64,000 nucleotides of DNA from Rhizobium sp. NZLR1 (lineage in GTDB: Bacteria > Pseudomonadota > Alphaproteobacteria > Rhizobiales > Rhizobiaceae), in contig NZ_CP071632.1 of the NCBI RefSeq assembly GCF_017357385.1, forward strand, positions 3,167,501 through 3,231,500, written 5' to 3'. The notes under the pieces are model-generated. The model searched no databases. It saw only the letters and a list, made by a program, of their open reading frames with translations, and was not told where the DNA came from. A program made the position numbers and the translations under genes. Each line of letters starts with the position of its first letter. Positions within the stretch are counted from its first letter, which is position 1. Below are positions 27,508 to 30,448 of this stretch, in pieces.

Positions 27508-28965
27508 TTATTCGGCGGCTGTCATAAGCCGCTGAATTTTCATCATGTCCTCGCGAAATCGCGCGAGCTCCTCCGCCTTCAGCCGCTCGTCGGGGATACG
27601 CAGCAGATAGGATGGATGCACCGTCACGAAGAGCGTGCGTCCTCCATCGATCGCCATTGCTTTCCCCCTGACATCTTGCAGGCGCTGTTTGACATCGGTC
27701 AGCGCCGCGAGCGCCGTTGCCCCCATGGCAACGATGAGCTTCGGCTCGACCAGCCCCATCTCCAGATTGAGCCACCAGCGGCAGTGCTTTACCTCGCCCA
27801 TATTAGGCTTCTGGTGGATACGGCGTTTGCCGCGCGGCTCATATTTGAAATGCTTGACGGCATTGGTAACGTAAAGCGTCGAGCGGTCGATGCCCGCCTC
27901 GGCGATCACCTGGTCGAGGAGCCGGCCGGCCGGACCGACGAAGGGGCGTCCTGCTATATCCTCCTGGTCGCCCGGCTGCTCGCCGACGAACATCACCTCT
28001 GCATCGCGCGGTCCCTCCCCGAAGACGGTCTGCGTCGCCTTGGCATGAAGCGGGCAGCGGGTGCAGACGTCAGCTTCCGCGCGCAACGCTTCCAGCGTGC
28101 CGGCCGGCGCCTCGGGTTCGGCAGGGATATTGCGCGCCGCGTCCTGCAGGCGGTCGTGAAAGGGCAGCGATTGCGTCGCCTCGCGCGCGGCCATGGCCCG
28201 CACCTTGCTCTCCGCCGATGCGATCAGCCCGGGGATGAGGTCGGCCTCCGGCAGGTTCTTCCAATATTTTTTTGGCATTTCCGCTTGCATCGCCTTCAGC
28301 TTCAATCGCGCCGGGTTGAAGATGCTGGCATAGTAGGTGCGCCAGAGTTCATCGGTGGCATCGGTGAGATTGGGCTTCTCGCATGGCGCGTCGCTCATCG
28401 TCAGCCGCTCGCCGTCCCAGGCGGCCGACCCCTTGGGCGTGACGATCAGCCAATCCATGTCAGTGAAACGGCGCTGGAAGAAGGGCGCCGTGCGCCGGAC
28501 GATATGGTGGTCCGGCTCAAACCAGGCGAGGAATTTTCGACGATCTGCCGTTGCGGCACCAACCTCCTTGAAGCGGACGAAAGCGGTCATCTTGTGCGCG
28601 TCACGCCGAACGTTTTTCGCCATCAGCCGGGCCCGCACGACGTCCTCGTCGGAGGCCACTTCCAGCAATTGCCGGTCCAGTTGCAGTCGCCAGAGCAGTC
28701 GGTAAAGCAACGAGAACCGTGCCGGATCGGAATTGCAGAGAACCGTTTCCGCCAGCTCGATGAAGGCTGGCGGCACCGTCATCGGCTTGCGTGTTATCGC
28801 AGGCGTCGGCGGCATGGCGTCGCGTTGAAATGCAAGATCCGGCTCCGCGGCTTTTTCGCGCCAATCGATTTCATCAGGCAATATGCCGGCGGCGGCAAAA
28901 GCGCGCGCGGCATCGCGCCATTCGGCAAGCTCGCCCCGTCCTGCAAGCACGACCCGGCGCATCAC
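27508..28965 (-). CDS. DUF4130 - UdgX fusion (uracil-DNA-binding repair protein)
   Basis: 485 residues in two parts. About 1-270 is the DUF4130 (TIGR03915-type) domain. From about 290 on it is a family 4-like uracil-DNA glycosylase of the UdgX class: iron-sulfur cysteines begin at C301 and C304 (CTRCPLH), motif A GEQPGDQED at 328-336, and the UdgX-specific loop KRRIHQ at 380-385, whose His in mycobacterial UdgX becomes covalently bound to the uracil-derived abasic site. It therefore probably binds uracil in DNA irreversibly. Its start overlaps the stop of the radical SAM gene by four bases (ATGA), so the two are coupled, and the pair is probably SOS-controlled. Confidence 0.93.
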   Translation of the reverse strand: MMRRVVLAGRGELAEWRDAARAFAAAGILPDEIDWREKAAEPDLAFQRDAMPPTPAITRKPMTVPPAFIELAETVLCNSDPARFSLLYRLLWRLQLDRQLLEVASDEDVVRARLMAKNVRRDAHKMTAFVRFKEVGAATADRRKFLAWFEPDHHIVRRTAPFFQRRFTDMDWLIVTPKGSAAWDGERLTMSDAPCEKPNLTDATDELWRTYYASIFNPARLKLKAMQAEMPKKYWKNLPEADLIPGLIASAESKVRAMAAREATQSLPFHDRLQDAARNIPAEPEAPAGTLEALRAEADVCTRCPLHAKATQTVFGEGPRDAEVMFVGEQPGDQEDIAGRPFVGPAGRLLDQVIAEAGIDRSTLYVTNAVKHFKYEPRGKRRIHQKPNMGEVKHCRWWLNLEMGLVEPKLIVAMGATALAALTDVKQRLQDVRGKAMAIDGGRTLFVTVHPSYLLRIPDERLKAEELARFREDMMKIQRLMTAAE

Positions 28966-30206
28966 AGCAACGACAATTGTTCGGGTTTCGGCTCGAACAT
29001 GGCGCGAAGGTCCGGCCGGTCGATCAGCCGGCGCGGCGACCAGCCTTCCGCCGAGATGAAAGATTGGACCTTCTTGATCGACACGCCGAGCCGCGAGAGA
29101 TCGTCGAGCCGCAGGCGACGAAACCGGCGTGCCGAAACGATCGCTTTGACGGTCTTGGTCCCGAGACCCGGCACACGCAGCAACCGCTCGCGCTCGGCCC
29201 TGTTGATATCGACGGGAAAATCGGCGCGGTTGGCGAGCGCCCAGGCAAGTTTGGGGTCGAGGTTAAGATCGAGCATGCCGCCCACCTGGTTGGCGGTGAT
29301 CTCATCGATGCCGAAACCATAGAATCGATAGAGCCAGTCGGCCTGATAGAGCCGGTGTTCGCGCATCAGCGGCGGTTTGATCAGCGGCAGGTTTTTGGAC
29401 GAATCCGGGATCGGGCTGAAGGCGGAATAATAGACACGCTTCAGGCCGTAGCTGCTGTAAAGCCTGCCGCTGGTCGCCAGGATCGTCGCATCGTTCGCTC
29501 CGTCGGCGCCAACGATCATCTGCGTGCTCTGGCCGGCCGGCACGAAACGCTGACGCTTCTTTGTCTGCAGCGTCGGTTCGCCGGCGGCTTCGATCTTCAG
29601 CCTGAGATCGCCCATTGATCGGCGGATATTGGCGGGTTTCTTTTCCGGCGCAAAGCGGCTGATGCCGTTATCCGTCGGCAACTCGATATTGAGCGACAGC
29701 CGGTCGGCATAGAGTCCCGCCTCCTCGATAAGACGCGGCGATGCTTCGGGGATTGATTTCAAATGGATATAGCCGCTAAAATTATGCGTCACACGCAGTT
29801 CGCGGACGATGCGGACCATCTCTTCCATCGTGTAGTCGGACGAACGAATAATGCCCGAGGAAAGAAACAGGCCTTCGATATAGTTGCGGCGGTAGAATTC
29901 CAGCGTCAGCCAGATGACCTCCTCGGGCGTGAAGCGCGCCCGTTCGACATTGCTCGACGAACGATTGACGCAATAGGCGCAGTCGTAGACGCAGAAATTG
30001 GTCAGCAATATTTTGAGAAGCGAAATGCATCGCCCATCCGGGGCATAGGCATGGCAGATGCCGGACCCCTCGGTCGAGCCGAGCCCGCCGCTTGCCGCCG
30101 AATCGCGTTTCACCGTGCCGCTGGACGCGCAGGAAGCATCATATTTCGCTGCGTCGGAAAGGATGGCTAAGCGTTCTGTTAGCGACTTCTTCATTAGAAT
30201 GTTCAC
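28962..30206 (-). CDS. Putative DNA modification/repair radical SAM protein
   Basis: 414 residues from GTG 30206, which has AAGGA seven bases upstream; ATG 30194 is an alternative. The radical SAM cluster motif is C72-x3-C76-x2-C79 (FCVYDCAYC), followed by a TIM-barrel-like core and a C-terminal helix-hairpin-helix (LLRVPGLGTKTVKAIVSARR) that suggests DNA binding. It belongs to the family found next to UdgX/DUF4130 genes (TIGR03916 type). The reaction is unknown; repair of a modified base is a reasonable guess from the context. A LexA box covers its start codon. Overlap with the UdgX gene is four bases. Confidence 0.92.
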   Translation of the reverse strand: MNILMKKSLTERLAILSDAAKYDASCASSGTVKRDSAASGGLGSTEGSGICHAYAPDGRCISLLKILLTNFCVYDCAYCVNRSSSNVERARFTPEEVIWLTLEFYRRNYIEGLFLSSGIIRSSDYTMEEMVRIVRELRVTHNFSGYIHLKSIPEASPRLIEEAGLYADRLSLNIELPTDNGISRFAPEKKPANIRRSMGDLRLKIEAAGEPTLQTKKRQRFVPAGQSTQMIVGADGANDATILATSGRLYSSYGLKRVYYSAFSPIPDSSKNLPLIKPPLMREHRLYQADWLYRFYGFGIDEITANQVGGMLDLNLDPKLAWALANRADFPVDINRAERERLLRVPGLGTKTVKAIVSARRFRRLRLDDLSRLGVSIKKVQSFISAEGWSPRRLIDRPDLRAMFEPKPEQLSLL

Positions 30207-30215
30207 TATATGTTC
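30201..30215 (-). promoter_or_regulatory. LexA (SOS) box, GTTC-N7-GTTC
   Basis: Plus-strand reading GTTCACTATATGTTC is an exact match to the alphaproteobacterial LexA consensus GTTC-N7-GTTC. It overlaps the GTG start (30204-30206) of the radical SAM gene and lies just upstream of the alternative ATG, a position where bound LexA would block transcription. A direct repeat of this exact form should occur about twice in 64 kb by chance counting both strands, but its placement at the head of a DNA-repair operon makes function likely. Confidence 0.82.
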
Positions 30216-30448
30216 CTTAGAACAAAGTCAACCGCGGTGGTCCGATCTTTTGCCGGTTTTTGCGACGGACGACCCGCTGTCGCGGCGGCTCGCATTTCGT
30301 TTATCCGAATTTTCTGGAAATCGGCCTTGGCGATCTGCTATAAGCACTTAACTAGGATTGTGGCACGGTTCCGAAGCTCCCCTTCGGGACCTGTTTTCTT
30401 TTGTGTTTGCGCCTAACTGCGTGGATACAAGGAGTGAAGGACAGAAAA

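Follow-up and report, generated by a model that had tools for sequence, protein, structure and literature searches.

Rhizobium sp. NZLR1 carries a short direct repeat at the start of a radical SAM gene, and the question that it raises is whether this repeat is an operator of the SOS repressor LexA and, if so, which gene it serves. The locus was analyzed within a window of 64,000 nucleotides (contig NZ_CP071632.1, positions 3,167,501 to 3,231,500), to which all coordinates without a locus label refer. A first-pass annotation of this DNA had proposed that a LexA box on the radical SAM gene and on the DUF4130-UdgX gene that follows it would place a uracil-trapping protein and a partner enzyme in the rhizobial SOS response. 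A related prediction exists: SOS control of a COG1573-COG4277 operon, termed a putative UDG-based excision repair system, was predicted in Bacteroidetes, and the same paper mentions earlier reports, in Verrucomicrobia and Alphaproteobacteria, of a UDG-based repair system regulated by SOS, with a reference to Caulobacter (PMC8565304).

The operon and its putative LexA box

An exact GTTC-N7-GTTC was present at positions 30201-30215 as the first-pass annotation had claimed, reading GTTCACTATATGTTC on the + strand and GAACATATAGTGAAC on the gene strand (-), and it is referred to here as a putative LexA box, with the class-wide footprint described below. According to the same annotation the box covers the start of the radical SAM gene; this is the case for an upstream GTG (30206), a possible start that lies inside the box, but not for the likely start, an ATG at 30194 located outside it, 6 bases past its end. 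The ATG was taken as the likely start because it matches the one annotated by RefSeq in the R. leguminosarum orthologue (locus L272). Given a distance of approximately 230 bases to greA versus 6 to the radical SAM start, greA was discarded as the target.

The radical SAM gene (28962..30194, - strand) scored 571.9 bits for TIGR03916 (rSAM_link_UDG) against a cut-off of 343.5, its CX3CX2C motif reads CVYDCAYC (cluster cysteines 72, 76 and 79), and its C-terminal helix-hairpin-helix matches were weak, slightly below their cut-offs. The score, the CX3CX2C motif and the linked DUF4130 gene (TIGR03915) all place it in the TIGR03916 family. The second gene (27508..28965, - strand; GTG start, with an ATG at 28962 also possible) encodes a DUF4130-UdgX fusion, with TIGR03915 at residues 10-241 and the UdgX family TIGR03914 at residues 243-476 (348.6 bits, cut-off 189.95). 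The UdgX part shows motif A as GEQPG and a KRRIH loop with the crosslinking His (His384), and this His and the motif A Gln were found in all 42 UdgX-bearing rows of the motif search. Comparison of the fusion protein against the PDB yielded a UdgX fold match, the matches listed being taken up by the UDG domain. The four-base overlap between stop and start that had been noted earlier is obtained if the GTG at 28965 is used, and is reduced to one base (TGATG) if translation starts at the ATG, as in L272.

The operon is flanked by carB (convergent) and greA (divergent), and the same order was observed in R. leguminosarum BIHB 1148. A terminator-like hairpin in the greA leader (30367-30391, + strand), identical in R. 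leguminosarum BIHB 1148 though nearby bases differ, is a possible attenuator; an Rfam scan of this leader gave a single match, far under its gathering score.

The match to the consensus is by itself uninformative, since the window contains two exact matches where 1.83 are expected (two were reached in 56 of 100 shuffles), and the whole genome contains 185, compared with 158 for the reversed pattern used as a control. Consensus counts were therefore dropped as a criterion for the site. The exact 15-mer, with up to two mismatches allowed, occurred eight times in the genome and not once for the reversed control, one of the occurrences being in the lexA promoter. A group II intron reverse transcriptase ORF is preceded by an exact second copy of the 15-base box (L304:2993-3007; G000:C2:90492-90506), which is probably part of the intron RNA and probably occurs there by chance.

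Conservation of the box and change of motif outside the class

In order to evaluate conservation, loci were gathered by protein family, the site itself never being the query. TIGR03916 matches above the cut-off were found in 38 of 199 genomes of the order and 84 of 398 genomes of the phylum, 10 of them common to both, resulting in 112 loci that were all examined. Among the 83 members of the class Alphaproteobacteria (protein-search orthologues), an exact GAAC-N7-GAAC box was located at -120 to +20 of the estimated radical SAM start in 81 (80 of 82 when the window's own locus is excluded), and the two misses differ from it by one (L055) and two mismatches (L046). Downstream DNA of the same loci served as background and contained 4 sites in 242,835 bp, which corresponds to 0.0023 for each stretch of 140 bases. 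A second set consisted of 80 named loci, the best matches to the TIGR03916 profile, one of which shares its start region with the first set and some of which may overlap it further at the species level. The exact box was found in 77 of these 80, and the three misses have a one-mismatch version. As a control, ORFs of the named loci that were delimited mechanically, had at least 250 residues and lay wholly outside the operon, not all of them being genes, showed a box at -120 to +20 in 1 of 122 cases; an earlier control on ORF starts without exclusion of the operon had given 5 of 205, four of the five being radical SAM starts in short-flank loci. The direct repeat that defines the alphaproteobacterial LexA regulon was thus found both at the window site and throughout the two sets.

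The distance (-12 to -93), spacer and orientation of the box differ among the class loci, and the box has therefore been retained, as more than mere inherited sequence. In R. leguminosarum BIHB 1148 the box is identical and the immediate upstream bases have diverged, which is the pattern of a conserved site with unconserved flanks that the first-pass annotation had suggested looking for in relatives, and conservation of the site extends to the class.

A different motif was found beyond the class. In the 29 phylum-mates outside Alphaproteobacteria the direct repeat was absent (0/29), and a palindrome, CTGT-N8-ACAG, was present exactly in 19 and within one mismatch in 24; the palindrome was found in none of the 83 class members. 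Such a switch would be expected if the site tracks the local LexA. Five of the 29 showed no recognisable box, namely G280, G477 and G567, which belong to one genus, as well as G262 and G535. In the three genomes of that genus the lexA box itself differs (TTAGTAGTAATACTACTAA), and this sequence was absent from the examined upstream region of their radical SAM genes. A palindrome, GGTCTCATCCAATGAGACC, with the core TCTCAT-N3-ATGAGA, precedes the radical SAM gene in these three genomes (L111, L123 and L134); as a new LexA regulon motif it was ruled out, its core occurring at one place per genome in all three.

Records from Bacillota, Bacteroidota and Gemmatimonadota were taken from a plasmid collection, and 300 bases upstream were tested for three motifs. 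Two exact copies of GAAC-N4-GTTC were found in Pusillibacter (a Bacillota plasmid), upstream of a small ORF that is itself followed by the radical SAM gene. Acetoanaerobium (Bacillota) has a single GAAC-N4-GTTC with one mismatch, which carries little weight because such near-matches were also observed in two Bacteroidota and in the Gemmatimonadota record. Caballeronia sp. NK8 carries CTGTATAAACATACAG at -29. No exact copy of the three tested motifs was detected in these 300 bases in Subdoligranulum (one of the three Bacillota), in any of the four Bacteroidota or in the single Gemmatimonadota record. The LexA motifs of Bacteroidetes are described as different (PMC8565304), and GGA-N5-TCC, the sole motif of that type tried, had no match in the two records searched for it (L274 and L275).

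Which gene the box follows

The strongest competing explanation is that the box is kept for SOS control of the uracil-trapping UdgX, the radical SAM gene being a passenger. It agrees with the presence of UdgX in 77 of 83 (first set) and 72 of 80 (named set) alphaproteobacterial operons, and with one stand-alone UdgX gene, L298 (G575), that has its own box, GAACGTATAGTGAAC, directly before its start, a possible case of independent recruitment of UdgX to the SOS response.

The distribution of the box in operons without UdgX argues against it. A DUF4130 match was found downstream of the radical SAM gene in 110 of the 112 loci; among the 64 of these partners that were profile-scanned, all preselected by their DUF4130 match, TIGR03915 was present in 64 (by selection) and UdgX in 43. 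Operons outside the class with DUF4130 alone keep the local box, exactly in 11 of 18 and within one mismatch in 16 of 18, and the fused DUF4130-UdgX operons outside the class have it exactly in 8 of 11, the three misses being those of the deviant genus (G280, G477 and G567). Within the class, the eight named operons without a UdgX match all carry the box. It is likewise present in L088 and L092, again without a UdgX match.

The same trend was observed from the side of UdgX. A search of the class gave 27 matches above the cut-off in 24 of 289 genomes, of which 19 were fetched (15 stand-alone and 4 fused); six of the rest belonged to the orthologues described above, and G600 and G803 were left out. 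Fourteen of the 15 stand-alone genes had no box near their start (in L296 a box lies 643 bases downstream of the start of the UDG match), and all four newly sampled fused operons had one at the radical SAM gene, between -40 and -3 relative to its estimated start. Rhizobium sp. NZLR1 itself has two UdgX proteins that exceed the family cut-off, and a third match, family-4-like, that falls short of it. Its second UdgX (G000:C3:178405-178980; L270 and L289) is a stand-alone gene with an RGKRRLH loop, and no LexA box was found in the stretch examined around it. Three udgx genes were described in R. leguminosarum (PMC10776899).

Because the box is kept in operons that lack UdgX and is missing near the start of 14 of the 15 stand-alone UdgX genes, this genome's second copy included, comparison across genomes indicates that the box follows the radical SAM-DUF4130 pair and not UdgX. 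The view of the site as one that serves the uracil-trapping protein was consequently abandoned, and retention of the box for UdgX is considered improbable.

Two other variants of the locus were observed: in L137 and L138 the box and the radical SAM gene are kept, and neither DUF4130 nor UdgX was matched downstream, and L032 keeps both with a partner truncated to 188 residues.

The box at lexA and on the promoter

A second explanation holds that the repeat is the site of another regulator, or a plain promoter element of this gene family. In its favor, the spacer of the box doubles as a -10-like element. Against it, the direct repeat was present in the lexA promoters of 17 of the 18 class genomes tested, and outside the class, where CTGT-N8-ACAG replaces the repeat, this palindrome was exact in 3 of 7 lexA promoters, a count that leaves out G280, G477 and G567 (deviant lexA box) as well as G262 and G535 (poor lexA matches). 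In Rhizobium sp. NZLR1 the same type of box was found at lexA, dinB, ssb and the SRAP gene. A role for another regulator or for a plain promoter element is thus regarded as very unlikely.

With respect to other boxed genes, the LexA-type box of the SRAP gene lies directly before it (L077:2778-2792). SRAP proteins trap abasic sites covalently, and this genome may have two covalent abasic-site proteins, SRAP and UdgX, under LexA. A further box, GTTCTTTTTTTGTTC (L011:1487-1501; G000:C1:306252-306266), is located upstream of a 2'-5' RNA ligase-like gene, possibly a further SOS gene.

The -10-like hexamer read from the sequence, TATAGT (30205..30210, - strand), lies inside the spacer of the box, and a -35-like hexamer, TTGACT (30226..30231, - strand), lies 15 nt from it, with the same offset in the close relatives L035 and L096. 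In the 67 GAAC-oriented boxes, TATAAT-like hexamers (two mismatches at most) occurred at spacer offset +5 in 63%, compared with 19% or less elsewhere between -12 and +29, and TTGACA-like hexamers peaked at -18 (25%), which corresponds to a 17-nt spacing; the remaining 14 boxes have the opposite orientation. A generic promoter scan, which admits spacings of 16-18 nt, called no promoter at the window box, where the spacing between -35 and -10 is shorter than usual. The operator appears to be placed on the -10 element.

Phage defence and chance

An operon linked to the SOS response by virtue of a function in phage defence is regarded as very unlikely. The patchy occurrence of TIGR03916, in 38 of 199 genomes of the order, would suit it, but PADLOC gave no match for either protein (E 0.001), only two relatives were found among viral contigs, and the operon lies between carB and greA in the window and in one close relative; this reading was dropped on the absence of a PADLOC match and the two viral-contig relatives. 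The two contigs (L237 and L238, from IMG/VR) each encode a radical SAM relative and are possibly host DNA.

Chance occurrence of a degenerate 8-base consensus beside a start codon, with which the near-expected counts in window and genome are compatible, can be set aside almost completely because the box is conserved across orthologues (81 of 83 promoters against 0.0023 expected for each, and 77 of 80 in the second set), barring a homologue search biased to the box, and the queries were protein families.

Discussion

The site is best read as a LexA operator that overlies the core promoter of an SOS operon of two genes, a reading to which we assign a probability of approximately 0.88. Strong support for LexA control comes from the conservation of the box beside a diverged flank, from its replacement by another motif outside the class, from its position on a -10-like element and from the presence of the same type of box at lexA, dinB, ssb and SRAP, and such control is about as certain as sequence allows; the operon would very probably be turned on by DNA damage. 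Of the proposal that LexA brings UdgX and a radical SAM enzyme into the SOS response, the part concerning LexA therefore stands, and UdgX as the target does not.

The control would operate as follows. LexA occupying the -10 element would block transcription until RecA filaments formed on damaged DNA promoted its self-cleavage, upon which both genes would be transcribed together and their translation coupled through the overlapping stop and start. The unit under control would be the radical SAM enzyme with DUF4130, and UdgX an addition that most of the Alphaproteobacteria examined carry as a fusion to DUF4130. We tentatively propose, at slightly less than even odds, that the two proteins act jointly: the radical SAM enzyme, with its helix-hairpin-helix tail, and DUF4130 would correct or modify a damaged base by radical chemistry, and UdgX would anchor the complex at uracils and cap the abasic site via its conserved His, preventing a strand break during the SOS response. 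A more speculative idea, which we consider rather unlikely, is that radical SAM-DUF4130 constitutes a widespread separate SOS repair pathway that stayed under LexA control as the motif changed (direct repeat, CTGT palindrome, and GAAC-N4-GTTC in one Bacillota plasmid) and that acts on a lesion generated by the SOS response itself, to which UdgX was added later as a covalent anchor, radical SAM-DUF4130 processing or releasing the UdgX-DNA crosslink or the marked base.

COG4277 is presumably equivalent to TIGR03916, so that the operon predicted to be SOS-controlled in Bacteroidetes would contain the same gene pair under the same kind of regulator, a prediction likewise based on comparative genomics. 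A prediction of SOS control for this gene pair has already been published, and the Rhizobium operon would be a strongly supported further case. Relative to that report, the present analysis adds a Rhizobium member, 112 proteobacterial orthologues and 80 named loci; what is new, besides this scale, is that the motif changes outside the class, that the box is placed on a -10-like element, and that UdgX can be told apart from a conserved radical SAM-DUF4130 core. The Caulobacter report, as referred to in PMC8565304, may or may not concern the radical SAM-DUF4130 operon. In the literature search COG4277 was found only in PMC8565304, UdgX was not found together with LexA, radical SAM or the SOS response, and the term SOS was absent from the main text of two UdgX papers (PMC10359453 and PMC10776899).

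DUF4130 was described as an enzyme with a predicted role in mutagenesis that is associated with SplB-like radical SAM proteins and UDGs (PMC3765255). The SplB-type radical SAM DNA lyase resembles this system in that a radical SAM enzyme is linked to DNA repair and to the SOS response, but TIGR03916 is a separate family, and the top structural matches of the radical SAM model were HydE and PFL-activating enzyme (TM about 0.4-0.6), SplB not being among the 50 matches listed. In contrast to UdgX of Mycobacterium smegmatis, UdgX is here fused to DUF4130 and encoded together with a radical SAM enzyme in one operon under a LexA box.

UdgX has been used for genome-wide uracil finding, and in a 2023 paper (PMC10359453) its physiological role is called largely unknown and is proposed to be abasic-site protection, with RecA-dependent resolution of the complexes. 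The link between an SOS operon and the covalent uracil-trapping UdgX looks unexploited. In the Alphaproteobacteria examined, most radical SAM-linked UdgX copies share a LexA-boxed operon with a radical SAM enzyme that is as yet uncharacterised, and the role of UdgX would therefore be directly testable under DNA damage; the conservation pattern suggests that DUF4130 and the radical SAM enzyme are the part to study first.
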